This document shows positions 6,141 through 36,144 of a DNA stretch of 42,798 nucleotides, in pieces. This stretch comes from an uncultured Actinomycetes bacterium (GTDB lineage Bacteria; Actinomycetota; Actinomycetes; Nanopelagicales; Nanopelagicaceae), in the NCBI GenBank assembly GCA_903933585.1, contig CAIZKO010000057.1, positions 1 through 42,798 on the forward strand, in the 5' to 3' direction. Made by a program: the position numbers and the translations under genes. Every line of letters begins with the position of its first letter. The first letter of the stretch is position 1. The notes under the pieces were generated by a model that worked only from the letters and a program-made list of their open reading frames with translations, made no database searches and had not been told where the DNA came from.

Positions 6141-8045
6141 ATGTTCCCAATTCGAAGTAGGACCAGAGGATTTGGTTTTATAGGTATTGTTTTCTTTTTT
6201 TTGGTTTCTCTAACCATCTTCCAGTCTCTCTCATCATCCGGAGCTTCAGCGCTCATGTTGCACTCATATAAATCTACTGGAGCAACTAGGACGATAGTGA
6301 TCCCAAAGAAAGGCGATTCATCTACGAAGGTGATTGGCCCACTTGGTGTTGGCGTCACAATCAATTCAACGGGGGCAACTGGAACAACAGGTGCTCCAGG
6401 AGCGGCGGGATCAACTGGAACAACGGGGGCAACTGGAACAACAGGTGCTCCAGGAGCAGCAGGATCAACGGGTTCAACGGGAGTTAGCGGAGCCAATGGA
6501 ATTCAAGGCGATACTGGAATCCAAGGGATTCAAGGTTTTGTTGGACCGCAAGGGCCAACGGGATTAATAGGTGCCACAGGTTCAACGGGTGCCACAGGCG
6601 CAACGGGATCAACGGGTTCAACTGGAGATACGGGTTCTGCCGGAAAAACAGGTGCAACCGGAAGTGCTGGTGCAAAGGGTGATACGGGATCAACTGGCGC
6701 ACCCGGAGCGGTTGGCGGACAAGGTGACTCAGGTTTAGCAGGTGCAACGGGCGCACAAGGTGCAACTGGAGCAGCTGGCGCACAAGGAAGTACAGGTTCA
6801 ACTGGAAGTGCAGGTGCATCCGGAACAAAGGGTGATACAGGTTCAACTGGAAGTGCAGGCGCATCCGGAACAAAAGGCGACACAGGTTCAACCGGAACTG
6901 CGGGTTCAGCAGGTGCGACAGGTCTAGCCGGCGCAACAGGTGCGGCCGGAATTAAAGGAGATGTCGGTGCAATCGGACCGCAAGGCCCACTTGGCAATCA
7001 AGGTGCAACAGGTGCGCAAGGTGAAGCAGGTACCGTCGGTGCATCCGGAACAAAAGGTGACACAGGTTCTGCAGGAGCAACCGGAACAAAGGGTGATGCA
7101 GGAACAGCAGGATCAACAGGTGCAGCCGGCGTTAACGGTGCTAAAGGTGATGTTGGTGCAATCGGACCGCAAGGTCCACTTGGCAATCAAGGCGCTACTG
7201 GCGCAACCGGAAGTGCTGGTGCAAAGGGTGACACTGGTGCTCAAGGCAGTGCTGGTTCAACCGGAAGTGCAGGCGCATCCGGAACAAAAGGAGATACAGG
7301 TTTAACTGGAGCACAGGGTTCACAAGGCGACGCAGGAACAGCCGGCGCTACCGGAATAAAAGGTGACACAGGTTCAACGGGATCAGCAGGTGCAGCCGGC
7401 GTTAACGGTGCCAAGGGAGATGTTGGTGCCATCGGACCACAAGGTCCACTTGGCAATCAAGGCGCAACAGGTGCGCAAGGTAGTACAGGTTCAACTGGAA
7501 GTGCAGGAGCAACTGGAACAAAGGGTGATGCAGGAACAGCAGGAGCAACAGGTGCGCAAGGTAGTACAGGTTCAACTGGAAGTGCAGGAGCAACTGGAAC
7601 AAAGGGTGATGCAGGAACAGCAGGAGCAACAGGTGCAGCCGGCGTTAATGGTGCTAAGGGAGATATCGGTGCAATCGGACCGCAAGGTCCACTTGGCAAT
7701 CAAGGCGCTATTGGCGCAGCCGGAAGTGTTGGTGCAAAAGGCGACGCTGGTGCAACAGGAGCTGCTGGTGCAAAAGGTGACACTGGTTCAACTGGGGTTA
7801 AAGGAGATACTGGTGCCATCGGACCGCAAGGTTCTCAAGGTATTCAGGGTATTCAAGGACCCGTTGGCCCTCAAGGTCCGACAGGAGCCACCGGCGCTGC
7901 AGGTGCTCCCGCAAGTTCAGTGACTCAGATCATTTGCGTACAAATCAAAGGCAAAGATGCAAACAACCAAATGCATTGGGGGACGTGTGCGAGCTCAGGC
8001 ATTAATAGCAATGACGGTGTTGAATACACGATATTGATTCATTAA
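6141..8045 (+). CDS. Secreted collagen-like (Gly-X-Y repeat) protein
   Basis: A 634-residue protein with three parts. Residues 1-38 form a signal peptide or N-terminal anchor (basic MFPIRSRTRG, hydrophobic core FIGIVFFFLVSLTIF, then SGASA). Residues about 39-77 are a non-repetitive linker. Residues 78 to about 590 are some 171 uninterrupted Gly-X-Y triplets, rich in GAT, GST, GDT, GAQ and GPQ. A 43-residue C-terminal cap has two Cys (ICVQ and GTCA) and could act as a trimerisation domain. Such repeats normally fold as a collagen triple helix; bacterial ones use Thr, Gln and charged residues instead of hydroxyproline. A module containing GAIGPQGPLGNQGA recurs four times and a shortened form a fifth. 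It probably forms a cell-surface filament or adhesin; partner and role are unknown. Confidence 0.9.
   Translation: MFPIRSRTRGFGFIGIVFFFLVSLTIFQSLSSSGASALMLHSYKSTGATRTIVIPKKGDSSTKVIGPLGVGVTINSTGATGTTGAPGAAGSTGTTGATGTTGAPGAAGSTGSTGVSGANGIQGDTGIQGIQGFVGPQGPTGLIGATGSTGATGATGSTGSTGDTGSAGKTGATGSAGAKGDTGSTGAPGAVGGQGDSGLAGATGAQGATGAAGAQGSTGSTGSAGASGTKGDTGSTGSAGASGTKGDTGSTGTAGSAGATGLAGATGAAGIKGDVGAIGPQGPLGNQGATGAQGEAGTVGASGTKGDTGSAGATGTKGDAGTAGSTGAAGVNGAKGDVGAIGPQGPLGNQGATGATGSAGAKGDTGAQGSAGSTGSAGASGTKGDTGLTGAQGSQGDAGTAGATGIKGDTGSTGSAGAAGVNGAKGDVGAIGPQGPLGNQGATGAQGSTGSTGSAGATGTKGDAGTAGATGAQGSTGSTGSAGATGTKGDAGTAGATGAAGVNGAKGDIGAIGPQGPLGNQGAIGAAGSVGAKGDAGATGAAGAKGDTGSTGVKGDTGAIGPQGSQGIQGIQGPVGPQGPTGATGAAGAPASSVTQIICVQIKGKDANNQMHWGTCASSGINSNDGVEYTILIH
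6371..6478 (+). repeat. Imperfect 54-bp tandem duplication in the collagen gene
   Basis: Two adjacent 54-bp units (6371-6424 and 6425-6478) begin with the same GGGGGCAACTGGAACAACAG and encode Gly-X-Y triplets; a few substitutions distinguish them. The unit is a multiple of 9 bp, so repeat-number change keeps both reading frame and triplet register. Confidence 0.8.
6372..7913 (+). repeat. Gly-X-Y triplet repeat tract
   Basis: About 171 consecutive 9-bp codon triplets starting with GGN. Copies of the ATCGGACCGCAAGG module start near 6971, 7160, 7430, 7673 and 7817, at intervals of 189, 270, 243 and 144 bp, all multiples of 9. This is what repeated in-register unequal exchange would leave. The antisense strand is open over long stretches only because of this composition. 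Confidence 0.92.
7470..7631 (+). repeat. Perfect 81-bp tandem duplication in the collagen gene
   Basis: 7470-7550 and 7551-7631 are identical over 81 bp (nine Gly-X-Y triplets each). The older modules nearby have silent differences, so a perfect match marks a recent expansion, or gene conversion. It is also a place where an assembler could collapse or expand copies. Confidence 0.9.
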
Positions 8046-14244: not shown

Positions 14245-15324
14245 ATGATTATTGGTGTTCCTAAAGAGATCAAAAATAATGAATCCCGCGTAGCACTTAC
14301 TCCCTCTGGGGCACATGCGCTCAGTGGTCAACACACGGTCCTGATCGAAAGCGGAGCCGGCGTTGGATCGGCAATTAGCGATGCCGATTATGTCGCCGCT
14401 GGTGCACAGATCGTTGCGACCGCCGATGAGGTCTGGCAGCGCGCGGAGATGATCATGAAGGTCAAAGAGCCGATCGCCGTGGAATATCCCAAGATGCGCA
14501 AAGGTCAGATTCTCTTCACTTATCTACACCTCGCTGCAGATCGCGAATTAACCGTTGCCCTGATGGAACAGGGCGTCACCGCTATCGCCTACGAGACCGT
14601 TGAAATTAATCGCCACTTGCCATTGCTCGCACCAATGTCAGAAGTCGCCGGTCGTATGTCGATTCAAGTCGGCGCCACTGCACTACAACGTCCCGAAGGC
14701 GGTCGCGGAGTTCTGCTTACTGGAGTTCCCGGAGTTCGTCCCGGCAAGGTTGTCATCTTGGGCGGGGGAGTTGTTGGAGTTGCAGCAGCGACCGTCGCAC
14801 ATGGCATGCATGCTGATGTCACGATCCTCGATCTCAATCTCGAACGCCTAGCCCAGATCGATCAGATCTTTGCCGGACAGGTTAAAACTTTGGCATCCTC
14901 TAAATACGAGATCGAACAACAATGCATGGCAGCGGATTTAGTAGTCGGCGCTGTCCTGGTCCCCGGAGCAAAGGCTCCCAAGCTCGTCACCAAAGATTTA
15001 GTTGCAAAGATGAAGCCGGGATCCGTGCTTGTCGATGTGGCAATCGATCAAGGTGGCTGCTTCGAAGGTTCTGTTGCGACGACGCACGCTGAGCCAACAT
15101 TCAAAGTCCACGATTCTTTGTATTACTGCGTCGCAAATATGCCAGGTGCGGTCCCAGCGACTTCGACCTACGCCCTTGCAAATGCCACAATCAAATATGC
15201 GGTGGCGATTGCAGATTTGGGCTGGGAAGTAGCGATTGCGCGCGATCCTGCGCTCGGTTCTGGCCTCAACGTGCACGACGGCAAGATCACTTATGCCGCT
15301 GTTGCTGCTGCTCACGGGCTCTAG
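14245..15324 (+). CDS. ald: Alanine dehydrogenase
   Basis: Reversible NAD+-dependent oxidative deamination of L-alanine to pyruvate and ammonium. The 359 residues follow the family from the start: [20 protein letters not shown], then MKVKEP with the substrate-binding Lys, TYLHLA with the catalytic His, and a Rossmann dinucleotide fold at [14 protein letters not shown] (about residues 168-181). The C-terminal part has VDVAIDQGG and the [18 protein letters not shown] signature. Length is slightly under the usual 370. It is followed immediately by the leucine leader peptide unit. In lean genomes this enzyme can serve either alanine catabolism or NADH recycling. Confidence 0.96.
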
Positions 15325-25803: not shown

Positions 25804-27630
25804 ATGGCCGGACGCATTAGAGATGAAGACGTAACCTACGTCCGCGAGCACACCCCGATTGAAGATGTCGTCGGCGACTTCGTACAACTCAAAGGCGCTG
25901 GTGGGGGTCAGAAGAAGGGTCTCTGCCCTTTCCATGACGAGAAGAGCCCTTCCTTCAATGTGACCCCCGCAAAGGGATATTTCCATTGCTTTGGTTGTGG
26001 CGTCGGCGGAGATGTCATCGCTTTCTTAATGAAGTTAGAACATCTGACATTTACTGAGACCGTGGAACGCTTAGCTGAACGCATTGGGTATCAACTGCAC
26101 TACGACTCCACCGGTCCATCTGCGGGAAGTGGAATCAATCGTTCGCGTTTAGTTGCCGCAAATACCGCCGCCGCTGCCTTTTACCGGGAGCAGCTTGCTC
26201 TACCCGGCCCCGCACAAGTCGGACGCGAATTCCTCACCGGACGTGGCTTTGATAAGACCGCGGCGGAACAATTCGGTGTTGGCTACGCCCCCGATGAGTG
26301 GGATGCCCTTTATAAGCATCTGAGCGCTCTGGGCTATAAGGATGAAGAGTTGAACCTGGCTGGTCTAACTAAAGAGGGAAGCCGCGGTGGTTTAATCGAT
26401 CGTTATCGCAATCGCTTGGTCTGGCCCATCAAAGATATCTCTGGAGACATCGTTGGCTTTGGCGCCCGCAAACTTGCGAGCGATGATAAAGATCAAGGAC
26501 CTAAATATTTAAATACATCTGAAACTCCGATTTATAAGAAGTCACAGATCTTGTATGGCCTGGATATGGCGAAGAAAGAGATCGCCAAGAAGCGCCAAGT
26601 TGTAATCGTTGAAGGTTATACCGATGTAATGGCTGCGCATCTTGCCGGCATCACTACAGCCGTAGCTACCTGCGGGACTGCATTCGGCGATGACCATATT
26701 CGCATCATCCGCCGCCTCTTGATGGATGACGATGCATTTAGAGGCGAAGTTATATTTACCTTCGACGGTGATGCTGCGGGACAGAAGGCCGCACTGCGCG
26801 CTTTCGATGATGATCAGAAATTTGTAGCGCAGACCTTTGTTGCCGTTGAACCATCCGGCATGGATCCCTGCGAATTGCGCCAATCTGGGGGAGACCTTGC
26901 GGTACGCGACCTGATCGCACGACGAGTTCCACTCTTTGAATTTGCTATGCGCAGTGTGATCAAACAATACGATGTGGCTTCGGCCGAAGGTCGTGTGAGC
27001 GCCCTTAATCAAGTTGCTCCACTTGTTGGCAAGATTCGCGATGCCTCACTTCGCCCCGAATACATTCGCTTGGTAGCGGGGTGGCTCGGAATGGAAGTTG
27101 ATACCGTCTCGGCCGCGGTAAAGCGCGTTGCAGGCAAGAGCAACACTCCGCTTCCGGATGCGCCGGCGATGGCGGTCAATCTCTCTGATCCGATCTTGAT
27201 GCTCGAGCGCGAAGTCCTTAAAGCAAAGTTGCAGGCAAACGAGTTGGCTCCACAGTGGGTTGATATTGAGGCCAATGCATTTACTTATCCACCATATGCA
27301 GCGGTGCGCGCCAAGATCGATTCCCTTCCTGATATGAATATTGCATCTCTTTTGGAGCGAACCGAAGATGAAAATCTGCGTGGGTTGCTCACGGAATTGA
27401 TCGTGGAGCCCATCCGCACCGACGGCGAAGTCTCGGAGCGCTATGTAGCCAGCATTATTGCCCGGCTCCGTGAAGTCGCCCTGAGTCGCGATATCGCCGA
27501 GATTAAGTCGACCTTGCAGCGGATCAATCCCGTCGATGAGGCTGAGAGATACGCGGAGATTTTTGGGGCGCTGGTGGCTAAAGAGGCGCAAAGGCGAGCC
27601 CAGAAGGACTTGGCGATAGGGGATCTGTGA
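25804..27630 (+). CDS. dnaG: DNA primase
   Basis: Synthesises RNA primers at the replication fork. The 608 residues contain the N-terminal zinc finger (C41, H44, C62, C65 in CPFHDEKSPSF and HCFGCGVGGD), the catalytic core with IKDISGDIVGFGARKL, the Toprim acidic motif VVIVEGYTDVMAAH and FTFDGDAAGQKAAL, and a C-terminal helical DnaB-binding-type domain (about 440-608). Length and domain order are normal. Confidence 0.97.
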   Translation: MAGRIRDEDVTYVREHTPIEDVVGDFVQLKGAGGGQKKGLCPFHDEKSPSFNVTPAKGYFHCFGCGVGGDVIAFLMKLEHLTFTETVERLAERIGYQLHYDSTGPSAGSGINRSRLVAANTAAAAFYREQLALPGPAQVGREFLTGRGFDKTAAEQFGVGYAPDEWDALYKHLSALGYKDEELNLAGLTKEGSRGGLIDRYRNRLVWPIKDISGDIVGFGARKLASDDKDQGPKYLNTSETPIYKKSQILYGLDMAKKEIAKKRQVVIVEGYTDVMAAHLAGITTAVATCGTAFGDDHIRIIRRLLMDDDAFRGEVIFTFDGDAAGQKAALRAFDDDQKFVAQTFVAVEPSGMDPCELRQSGGDLAVRDLIARRVPLFEFAMRSVIKQYDVASAEGRVSALNQVAPLVGKIRDASLRPEYIRLVAGWLGMEVDTVSAAVKRVAGKSNTPLPDAPAMAVNLSDPILMLEREVLKAKLQANELAPQWVDIEANAFTYPPYAAVRAKIDSLPDMNIASLLERTEDENLRGLLTELIVEPIRTDGEVSERYVASIIARLREVALSRDIAEIKSTLQRINPVDEAERYAEIFGALVAKEAQRRAQKDLAIGDL

Positions 27631-27682
27631 TTTAGCCAAATCACGGGATCTTGCTAAGATTCCCTCTCAAGGTGCCAGATAT

Positions 27683-27755
27683 TCCCTGATAGCTCAATTG
27701 GCAGAGCAGTCGACTGTTAATCGACAGGTTCTTGGTTCGAGTCCAAGTCAGGGAG
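27683..27755 (+). tRNA. tRNA-Asn (anticodon GTT)
   Basis: A full cloverleaf: acceptor stem TCCCTGA (27683-27689) with TCAGGGA (27748-27754), D arm GCTC/GAGC, anticodon stem GTCGA/TCGAC with loop CTGTTAA (27714-27720, anticodon 27716-27718), T arm CTTGG/CCAAG with TTCGAGT. Discriminator G at 27755; CCA is not encoded. Confidence 0.97.
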
Positions 27756-27776
27756 CTTTACGCCAACCAAGATTTT

Positions 27777-27808
27777 TAAGGTTGGGTCGGTATGCTCACT
27801 CCATACCG
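27777..27808 (+). promoter_or_regulatory. -10 element and 5' hairpin before the DoxX-Rieske gene
   Basis: TAAGGT (27777-27782) is a -10 candidate. The transcript would begin near 27789, at a perfect 7-bp hairpin CGGTATG/CATACCG (27788-27794 with 27802-27808) with loop CTCACTC. The ribosome binding site AAGGGAC follows the hairpin directly. Confidence 0.5.
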
Positions 27809-27818
27809 AAGGGACACA

Positions 27819-28697
27819 ATGGCTCGCTTTTCAACCGCCGAAACCTGGCGCACACAATCAACAGGTACTCGGGTACTTCGCCTCATGCTCGGCGCTACCT
27901 GGCTCTATGGAGGCCTACAGAAGGCTTCTGATTCTCAATTCTTCAATAAGGCCTCAACGGGCTATATCGGAGCCCAGATCACGGGCTTCGCCAAGAACTC
28001 TCCGCTCTCCTTCATCTTGAAGCACATGATCTCCCACGCCGCGCTCGCGGGTTGGATGATATTGCTCGGTGAGATCGCTATCGGTTTAGCGGTTCTCAGC
28101 GGCGTTGCACTCCAAGCCGCCATTATCGCCGGAGCCGGCGTATCTACGATTTTGTGGTTGTCGGTTACCTGGCATGTACATCCCTATTTCCTTGGATCAG
28201 ATACCGCTTACTTAGTTATGTGGATCGCGCTCTTCTTCCTCGTTCGCAAAGAGGCCGGTACTAAAGCGCGCAAGAGTCCAATTCCTAATTTGGCTGATCG
28301 TCGCGAAGTCGTGCGCATCATTGGCGTCGGAACAACTGCGGTCATTGCAGCGCTCGCCGCTGGTCAGTTCAAGAAGTCGATTCCAGTTCCGACCGCCGGA
28401 AATAAGATCGTAGACCTCGCCAAATTCCCGGTGGGTTCCACGATGCAATTCACCGCACCCGATGGAAACCCAGCCTTCTTATTTAGAACCAAAGTTGGGG
28501 TCTTTGCCTATTCTGCAATCTGCACCCACCAGGGTTGCACACTGGGTTATAACCCGACCGCAAATAGCCTCGATTGCCCATGCCACGGTAGTACATTTGA
28601 TGTAGCCAACGGCGGCGCGGTGCTCGGTGGCCCAGCTCCAGCACCACTTCCAACATACAAGGTTGCGATAAGCGGCAACTCGATTGTGACGGTATAA
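27819..28697 (+). CDS. DoxX-type membrane protein fused to a Rieske [2Fe-2S] domain
   Basis: A 292-residue fusion. Residues about 18-143 form a four-helix DoxX-like membrane domain (RLMLGATWLYGGLQK, GWMILLGEIAIGLAVLSG, TAYLVMWIALFFLV). Residues 163-183 (REVVRIIGVGTTAVIAALAAG) look like a fifth helix. Residues about 195-292 are a Rieske domain with C235-T-H237 and C253-P-C255-H256 as cluster ligands. C240 and C255 fit the disulfide of high-potential cytochrome bc-type Rieske proteins. It probably passes electrons to or from the quinone pool, by analogy with DoxD thiosulfate:quinone oxidoreductase; donor and acceptor are unknown. The ATG at 27819 is preferred over that at 27792, which lies inside the 5' hairpin, because AAGGGAC precedes it. 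Confidence 0.85.
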   Translation: MARFSTAETWRTQSTGTRVLRLMLGATWLYGGLQKASDSQFFNKASTGYIGAQITGFAKNSPLSFILKHMISHAALAGWMILLGEIAIGLAVLSGVALQAAIIAGAGVSTILWLSVTWHVHPYFLGSDTAYLVMWIALFFLVRKEAGTKARKSPIPNLADRREVVRIIGVGTTAVIAALAAGQFKKSIPVPTAGNKIVDLAKFPVGSTMQFTAPDGNPAFLFRTKVGVFAYSAICTHQGCTLGYNPTANSLDCPCHGSTFDVANGGAVLGGPAPAPLPTYKVAISGNSIVTV

Positions 28698-33994: not shown

Positions 33995-34187
33995 TCTGCT
34001 GGGTAGGTCCTAAATAGTATGGGGTGAAATGGGGGGCTAACACTCCAATGCGTTCAGTGACTGGTCAGTTATTACCCTGAAATCGCCCTAAAATTAGAGA
34101 GGAATGACCCGCTGATTGCGTGAAATTGACCTTTAAACGAATAATTGACACCTCTCACTAAGTTACGGAATCGAGTTTGCATTGGAA

Positions 34188-35156
34188 ATGAAATATAAGA
34201 ATCTGGGCCGGTCTGGTCTTTCGGTAAGCCAACTCTGTTTGGGAACGATGAATTTTGGTCCAGAGACCGACGAGACAACCTCTCATTCCATTATGGATGC
34301 GGCGCTCGGCTATGACATTAATTTCTTCGATACCGCGAACCGCTACGGCGGCCCGGAGAATTTCGGTCGGACCGAAGAGATTATCGGGCGCTGGTTTGCA
34401 AAGGGTGGGGGACGCCGCGAGAAGGTAGTTCTAGCAACAAAGCTTTATGGGCCGATGGATCCATGGGCAAATAATCGAGGCGTATCAGCACTCAATATTC
34501 GTCGCGCCTGCGACGCCAGCTTGAAGCGCCTGCGGACTGATTACATCGATCTTTATCAGATGCACCACATCGACCGTGCAACTCCGTGGGAAGAAGTTTG
34601 GCAGGCGATGGAAGTACTCGTCACCCAGGGAAAGATTCTCTATGTGGGTAGCTCTAACTTTGGCGGATGGCACATTGCACAGGCTCAAGAAAGAGCTCAG
34701 GCACGCAACTTCATGGGACTGATCTCCGAGCAATCTATTTACAACTTGGTGACTCGCGATATCGAGCGCGAAGTAATTCCGGCAGCACTCAATTATGGTT
34801 TAGGAATAATGCCTTGGTCTCCGCTTCACGGTGGGTTGCTCGGAGGCATTCTTAAGAAGCAAGATTCCAAGCGCCGCCTCGAGGGACGTTCCAAGGAGTT
34901 CTTCGATGCCAAGCGTCCGCAGATTGAACGCTACGAAGCCTTCTGCGAATCTCTCGGATACGAGCCAGCAGATGTAGCGCTGGCTTGGTTACTTGCGCAG
35001 CCAGCGGTTGCCGCTCCAATCATTGGTCCTCGAACTCAAGATCAGTTGGTGCGTTCACTCAAGGCTTTGGAAGTAACACTTTCTGCGGAGGATCTGGCAT
35101 CACTTGATGAAATCTTCCCCGGCTATAAAACTTCTCCGGAAGATTACGCCTGGTAA
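34188..35156 (+). CDS. Aldo/keto reductase
   Basis: NADPH-dependent reductase of carbonyl compounds; 322 residues in a TIM barrel. The catalytic tetrad is visible: Asp and Tyr in FFDTANRYG (about 45-53), Lys in LATKLYG and His in YQMHHID. The C-terminal RTQDQLVRSLKAL region binds the cofactor. It belongs to the YajO/Tas-like group; the substrate is unknown. The ATG at 34188 starts the family N-terminus MKYKNLGRSGL; a TTG two codons earlier is less likely. Upstream (33995-34187) TTGACA is present at 34145 but no convincing -10 at the normal distance, and no other feature was found. Confidence 0.92.
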   Translation: MKYKNLGRSGLSVSQLCLGTMNFGPETDETTSHSIMDAALGYDINFFDTANRYGGPENFGRTEEIIGRWFAKGGGRREKVVLATKLYGPMDPWANNRGVSALNIRRACDASLKRLRTDYIDLYQMHHIDRATPWEEVWQAMEVLVTQGKILYVGSSNFGGWHIAQAQERAQARNFMGLISEQSIYNLVTRDIEREVIPAALNYGLGIMPWSPLHGGLLGGILKKQDSKRRLEGRSKEFFDAKRPQIERYEAFCESLGYEPADVALAWLLAQPAVAAPIIGPRTQDQLVRSLKALEVTLSAEDLASLDEIFPGYKTSPEDYAW

Positions 35157-35864: not shown

Positions 35865-35870
35865 ACACAA

Positions 35871-35899
35871 AAGGCCCCACCATTTCTGGTGAGGCCCTT
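35871..35899. terminator. Bidirectional terminator between the M23 and cold-shock genes
   Basis: GGCCCCACCA pairs with TGGTGAGGCC (one mismatch) around TTTC, flanked by AAAA on the left and CTTC on the right. It serves both converging genes. Confidence 0.8.
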
Positions 35900-35914
35900 C
35901 GTATTAATGGTTAA

Positions 35915-36118
35915 TTAAGCAGGATTAACTGCATCAGCCTGTGGGCCCTTTGGACCTTGTACGACTTCAAAAGTTACTGCTTGACCCTCTTCGAGAGACT
36001 TGTAGCCATTGCCTTGGATAGCTGAGTAGTGAACAAATACATCTTGTCCGCCGCCATCAACAGCAATAAAACCAAAACCCTTTTCAGAGTTGAACCACTT
36101 AACTGTGCCTGTTGCCAT
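35915..36118 (-). CDS. Cold-shock protein (CspA family)
   Basis: A 67-residue single OB-fold RNA chaperone. RNP1 (KGFGFI) and RNP2 (VFVHY) are both present in [23 protein letters not shown] and [11 protein letters not shown]. It melts mRNA secondary structure, at low temperature or constitutively. GAAGGAAA before the ATG is a good ribosome binding site, and the long leader carries a hairpin (36145-36168). The 36119-36291 gap holds this leader and presumably its promoter; TTGGCA (- strand, near 36220-36225) is a possible -35. Confidence 0.96.
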
Positions 36119-36144
36119 GTAGATATTTCCTTCGGTATGTGAGT

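Follow-up and report, generated by a model that had tools for sequence, protein, structure and literature searches.

In the window, by which we mean the whole stretch of 42,798 nucleotides from a freshwater actinobacterium that was analysed, a tRNA-Asn gene is followed on the same strand by an open reading frame that encodes a DoxD-type (DoxX-like) membrane domain and a Rieske [2Fe-2S] domain (Table 1). The longest form of this frame opens with an ATG at 27792; the start codon that is accompanied by a ribosome-binding site is the ATG at 27819, and translation starts there from a short leader.

Table 1. Features of the fusion locus. Positions are those of the window; bit scores are Pfam scores of the encoded protein.
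Feature	Position	Strand	Evidence or remarks
tRNA-Asn	27683–27756	+	Directly upstream; part of the conserved synteny dnaG / tRNA-Asn / fusion / ACT-domain gene
Promoter-like conserved block: TAAGGTTG, then -10-like TATGCT (27791–27796)	27777–27796	+	8/8 close relatives
Inverted repeat TCGGTATG / CATACCGA	27787–27809	+	8/8 pairs in the window
Ribosome-binding site AAGGGA	27809–27814	+	Identical in the 8 close relatives, apart from a single base in one of them
DoxD-Rieske fusion gene	27819–28697	+	292 aa; ribosome-binding site and Pfam matches, homologues in own genus
DoxD (TQO small subunit) domain, residues 18–119	27870–28175	+	PF04173, 33.5 bits (curated cut-off 22.7)
Twin-arginine pair R161-R162 and fifth membrane helix (161–182), predicted Tat-dependent	28299–28364	+	RR in 38/38 homologues; helix from the model
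Rieske [2Fe-2S] domain, residues 215–281	28461–28661	+	PF00355, 47.4 bits (cut-off 20.3)
Rieske box I CTHQGC: ligands C235, H237; disulfide C240	28521–28538	+	38/38 homologues
Rieske box II CPCHG: ligands C253, H256; disulfide C255	28575–28589	+	C253, C255 and H256 in 38/38 homologues

A sequence-only reading of this locus had already described one polypeptide that joins a DoxX-like membrane domain to a Rieske domain, and the two Pfam matches within a single frame bear this out. An AlphaFold2 model of the protein, computed from a 32-row alignment (mean pLDDT 86.2), contains five membrane-length helices (residues 15–37, 74–94, 98–117, 127–149 and 161–182) followed by a beta domain; the first four, that is, the DoxD domain together with TM4, form a four-helix membrane unit. 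That this unit, helix 5 and the Rieske domain constitute a genuine single-polypeptide fusion is virtually certain. The division of the box residues into four cluster ligands and one disulfide pair is presumed from the numbering of the bc1 Rieske protein, and the homologue alignment confirms the earlier numbering of the cysteine pair.

Two other stretches of the window drew attention. An ORF of 634 aa (6141–8045, forward strand) abounds in G-x-y repeats of collagen type, such as GATGSTG and GPQGPLGNQG, and is mirrored by long ORFs on the opposite strand. On the reverse strand, positions 35867–36137 match the Rfam cspA thermoregulator (80.3 bits, threshold 78) over an actinobacterial cold-shock gene; this match overlaps the coding region 35915–36118 and may reflect coding sequence rather than a thermosensor.

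Putative promoter, leader and inverted repeat

The transcript had been proposed to begin with a perfect 7-bp hairpin placed just before the ribosome-binding site and exerting translational control. The repeat is real in the DNA and its arms (27787–27794 with 27802–27809) are in fact 8 bp long, perfect and separated by a 7-nt loop, but such structures are at chance level, since the window contains nine perfect hairpins of 8 bp (loop 3–10 nt), compared with a mean of 7.5 in ten first-order Markov shuffles. Folded as RNA, the hairpin has a z of −0.94. A functional RNA hairpin or operator controlling expression would be consistent with the retention of 6–7 of the 8 pairs in seven close relatives and with the proportion of paired hairpin cells, which is 89.1% in the eight sequences against 28–38% when the partner is slid. 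None of the eight pairs, however, displays a compensatory change among these eight close sequences; four never vary and four include unpaired cells. Furthermore, of the 29 upstream regions, the 21 beyond these eight have no perfect stem of at least 6.

The pattern of conservation points to a promoter instead. Both TAAGGTTG and GGTATGCTC are invariant in all eight close relatives, window included, and the left arm of the repeat, which holds the -10-like TATGCT, is invariant from GGTATG onward within GGTATGCTC, while the right arm varies. With TATGCT placed as the -10 box, the predicted RNA start falls near 27803, inside the right arm, and the message therefore probably lacks the hairpin and has a leader of 16 nt that includes AAGGGA. 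Neither a transcript opening with the hairpin nor translational control by it is thus upheld, and we consider a regulatory role of the repeat, as RNA or as operator, very improbable. A sigma-70 scan of positions 27600–28000 returned no promoter.

Across the 29 upstream regions of the family, a TANNNT motif starts at −12 or −13 in 12, at −28 in the window's clade of eight, and at neither position in nine. Leaderless genes, which are common in Actinobacteria, are recognised by such a motif about 12 bp upstream (PMC3160421), and the message is probably leaderless in many other members of the genus; the leaderless-type spacing was also found for 7 of the 22 window genes checked. Upstream of the -10 box, an AAGGTT(G)/CAGGTT(GA) block (27777–27784 in the window) recurs in many genus members and is a possible activator or sigma-factor element.

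Conservation, distribution and neighbours of the fusion

In the alignment of 38 homologues, the six Rieske residues and both arginines listed in Table 1 are invariant. Within the DoxD half, W10, R21, G32, K35, D38, P62, E85 and G89 never vary among the 36 rows covering them (the partial rows L016 and L017 have gaps in the DoxD columns), and H121 is kept in only 24 of the 38. Dropping partial or near-duplicate entries (L005, L016, L017, L019, L038 and L046) left the 32 members of alignment A1, all of which match Rieske and 31 of which match DoxD in Pfam. L042 and L046 resemble duplicates of a single gene, and L046 contains a run of N. Outside the 38 stands L029 (G017:C1:3080-3948), in which the gene appears to be split into two overlapping frames by a frameshift or an assembly error.

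The fusion is present in 27 of 32 genomes of the genus, those without it (G005, G008, G009, G010 and G019) being 62–86% complete, and in four of five genomes from other genera of the family. At the level of the class, both halves occur in one open frame in at least 57 of the 394 genomes sampled, a count from which G493 was excluded because its halves sit in different frames; for the own-family subset of this sample the figure is 29 of 41 among the matches listed. The phylum sample yielded at least 14 of 396 genomes, own genome counted. In family f19 it is chiefly the DoxD-like half that scores high, as a separate frame of about 170–265 aa in most of the listed cases. A search of plasmids returned two weak Rieske-only matches.

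The fusion architecture is conserved across Actinomycetota, and it is little studied: no paper describing a DoxX+Rieske or DoxD+Rieske fusion was found in the open-licence literature, judged largely by title. The sequence-only reading had named two observations that would count against it, Rieske ligands not conserved among homologues and a characterised full-length homologue with a different role. The ligands proved to be invariant, and no characterised full-length homologue was found.

In its own genus the fusion sits in a housekeeping stretch of dnaG, tRNA-Asn and an ACT-domain gene. Gene neighbours were surveyed with script-made gene calls at 27 loci outside the family, in 24 of which the fusion itself was called (not in L085, L094 and L124). 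Fifty neighbour proteins were run through Pfam: 47 from 26 of these loci (none from L124) and three from the own-family loci L090 and L091. At eight of the 27 loci (L041, L043, L045, L077, L078, L089, L094 and L121), a histidine kinase or response regulator is encoded no more than two genes away from the fusion, a count made without control loci. Only two-component genes recur as neighbours, and the eight loci are not independent, as an AIR-synthase-domain gene also accompanies several of them. An NDH-2-like dehydrogenase (L118) and ETF alpha (L044) are single cases, as are the ferric reductase and FMN-binding genes that directly precede the fusion in L116 and the ZIP transporter upstream in L115. 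Among the Pfam-checked neighbours of the 27 loci there is no steady redox neighbour; gene neighbourhood was rejected as a functional guide, no neighbour being steady enough to name a partner.

Twin-arginine signature and predicted Sec/Tat insertion

The invariant pair R161-R162, which the sequence-only reading had missed, immediately precedes helix 5 behind a positively charged loop (e.g. GRREFLRG in distant members). An even number of helices (four), the arginine pair, helix 161–182 and a C-terminal domain carrying the Rieske cofactor together make up the Sec/Tat dual-insertion layout, by which Tooke et al. searched for dual-inserted proteins (PMC5449189). TatC is encoded in the source genome, and the charge following helix 5 is net positive in 35 of 36 homologues. 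One expectation for dual insertion is not borne out, in that helix 5 is the least hydrophobic in none of 36 homologues (Kyte-Doolittle and Hessa scales), owing to the polar helices 1 and 4. Judged from the protein sequences, the pair appears to be the signature of a dual insertion of the actinobacterial QcrA kind, and it is the stronger observation here. The four DoxD helices would very probably be inserted by Sec, with the folded Rieske domain and helix 5 moved out by Tat. Such export, as in actinobacterial QcrA, strongly suggests a cluster on the outer face of the membrane.

The actinobacterial QcrA (Sco2149; own copy L002) shares with the fusion the order of Sec helices, twin arginine, last helix and Rieske domain, as well as CTHxGC and CPCH boxes. 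It differs in that its Tat helix is preceded by two helices and its gene sits in qcrCAB, whereas the fusion has a DoxD domain and is an orphan gene. Closer in helix number is KSE_30950 of Kitasatospora setae, a five-TMD Rieske homologue reported by Tooke et al. 2017 (PMC5449189). Like the fusion, it comes from an actinobacterium, is predicted to span the membrane five times and has its twin arginine next to helix 5. The two were compared by description only, and the passages describing KSE_30950 name no DoxX/DoxD domain and no experiment. The architecture is real and conserved, and the same layout is likely to be in print once already.

At a locus that we take to be dnaG, tRNA-Asn, X and ACT-domain gene from the ORF translations, three genomes (G453, G636 and G496) carry in the place of the fusion a Rieske gene without DoxD (L107, L108 and L109), which opens with a Tat-type signal (N-terminal RRGFLG, RRGFLR and RRSALR, respectively). 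G468, from the same genus, has the fusion at the equivalent locus (L110). These loci are a natural experiment that agrees with the Tat signature. A tree of the Rieske domain (30 rows) leaves 12 of 27 inner branches open, too many to count the DoxD losses or to place QcrA, the DoxD-less copies and the origin of the fusion.

The DoxD-less protein of G496 (L109:3300-3680) no longer has either cysteine of the disulfide (CTHQGG, CSVH) but retains all four ligands, a natural paired loss. Several genomes of the source genus encode a second, standalone Tat-type Rieske protein (L097, L098, L099, L101 and L103), often beside what is presumably a cation/proton antiporter gene. Among other standalone Rieske genes, that of L095 has an FTR1 iron permease nearby and that of L096 adjoins an iron-dependent repressor.

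Redox context and possible function

The source genome contains, on contig C71, adjacent and complete genes that we take from their translations to be qcrC, qcrA and qcrB; with this qcrCAB intact elsewhere, the fusion is an extra Rieske protein. In agreement with the earlier reading, no cytochrome b gene, qcrB or qcrC was seen among the window ORFs, which were read by eye. The accompanying statement that oxidoreductase genes are lacking holds for the immediate neighbours, but not for the window as a whole, where three further ORFs presumably encode an aldehyde dehydrogenase (86–1267), an alanine dehydrogenase (14245–15324) and an aldo/keto reductase (34182–35156). The fusion could be an alternative Rieske subunit swapped into a cytochrome bc/b6f-type complex under some condition: its motif is of the respiratory type, and its closest NCBIfam match is the actinobacterial QcrA (NF050121). 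However, the score of 58.6 bits is far below the cut-off of 275, the genome's own QcrA is without DoxD, and G032, a complete relative without the fusion, keeps a QcrA-sized Rieske match. Given also the separate qcrCAB, we hold such a swap to be highly unlikely; rather than serving the bc complex as its Rieske subunit, the fusion is an accessory carrier that some relatives lack.

The cysteine pair of the Rieske domain had further been called typical of high-potential cytochrome bc complexes. Ligands and disulfide pair are indeed present, but the pair is no proof of a bc-complex protein, because AioB of Alcaligenes faecalis shares it, its cluster lying at only +130/160 mV, while NT-26 AioB, without the disulfide, reaches +225 mV and the R. 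sphaeroides bc1 Rieske protein +300 mV (PMC3758308). In fold, the domain is nearest to AioB (Z 14.6, rmsd 1.9, 101 aligned) and the cyanobacterial PetC3 (Z 13.6, rmsd 2.0, 96 aligned), neither of which has a DoxD domain; b6f/bc Rieske folds follow at Z about 12. Of the residues that tune the potential, the window protein has Ser258 and, in place of Tyr, Phe260. Most homologues have Ala and Phe at these positions, the potential-raising Ser being found in 6 of 38, Tyr in 5 and Phe in 33. Loss of the Ser costs the yeast protein 130 mV and loss of the Tyr 65 mV, and a natural Phe/Ser Rieske protein lies at +335 mV (PMC12954380). High potential therefore does not follow, and the potential of the cluster cannot be read off the sequence. 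The substitutions bear on the claimed potential alone. Together with the translational hairpin, the high potential is a striking but weak part of the earlier reading.

The fusion is most likely a quinone-linked one-electron carrier at the outer face of the membrane, additional to the bc complex. The 'compact quinone-linked electron carrier' proposed before remains the best guess, its electron transfer, partner and direction being inferred. Within this scheme, the DoxD helices would hold a quinone and exchange single electrons with the Rieske cluster in one direction or the other, and the cluster may in turn trade electrons with a soluble or separately encoded partner on the outer face. We lean slightly towards the quinone link, since the TQO of the DoxD family passes electrons from thiosulfate to decylubiquinone (PMC6335251) and the DoxD model weakly resembles vitamin K enzymes. 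The values for the vitamin K carboxylase GGCX (Z 6.8, rmsd 4.0, 123 aligned), a VKOR-like protein (Z 6.4, rmsd 4.5, 129 aligned) and TMEM35A (Z 11.9) all fall within the range that is uninformative for helical bundles. The best Foldseek E for the DoxD domain was 0.48, no strong match, and the fold search was rejected as a source of a decisive relative. Menaquinone has a potential of about −75 mV, below the +130 to +335 mV of such Rieske proteins; for this reason a flow from menaquinol through the cluster to an acceptor of higher potential is tentatively suggested. Retention of the Rieske half without DoxD in three relatives shows that it can be kept alone and counts against the scheme, and for the explanation as a whole, a five-helix, dual-inserted, quinone-linked Rieske carrier, we regard the case for and against as evenly balanced.

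Two other functions deserve consideration. In a TQO-like enzyme, DoxD would oxidise thiosulfate or a thiol or other sulfur compound at the outer face and the Rieske domain would replace DoxA, electrons passing to the quinone pool. The DoxD match above its Pfam cut-off, shared by nearly all A1 members, fits this function, as does DoxDA (thiosulfate:quinone oxidoreductase) of Acidithiobacillus, in which a DoxD-type membrane domain is fused to an extra, soluble partner and where two-component genes lie upstream of tetH genes (PMC6335251), reminiscent of the two-component genes near the fusion outside the family. But the window protein has Rieske in the place of DoxA, no DoxA (PF07680) match was obtained in the source genome (92.6% complete), no sulfur-oxidation gene was recognised beside the fusion, and menaquinone reduction would be uphill from a Rieske cluster of higher potential; an enzyme of this kind is rather unlikely.

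It is less likely still that the protein helps, at the outer face, with the redox side of metal (iron) handling or with oxidative stress, the Rieske domain acting as reductant or oxidant of a metal or of a detoxification partner and DoxD as a membrane anchor. The genes upstream in L116 and L115, and those beside the standalone relatives L095 and L096, would suit such a role, and a mycobacterial DoxX acts together with SodA and SseA under oxidative stress (PMC6930017). Each of these neighbours is nonetheless a single case, with no iron gene recurring among the 27 clustered loci, and the housekeeping surroundings in the own genus do not suggest one.

For the quinone-linked carrier, an exchange of electrons between quinone and the Rieske cluster by the DoxD part would amount to a minimal quinone-to-iron-sulfur module without cytochrome b, distributed across Actinomycetota including freshwater lineages. 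It is unlikely, though conceivable, that the fusions are a widespread, uncharacterised actinobacterial family of one-polypeptide quinone:Rieske oxidoreductases, in which a quinone site in DoxD is coupled to a Rieske domain exported by Tat, and that they carry menaquinol electrons to outer-face acceptors without a bc complex; were this so, 292 residues would replace a multi-subunit Rieske/cytochrome b complex. The occurrence at the same locus of the fusion in some genomes and of a Rieske protein with its own Tat signal in others offers a ready natural test of the Sec/Tat handover, and the list of dual-inserted proteins would grow from one reported five-helix Rieske protein to a family.
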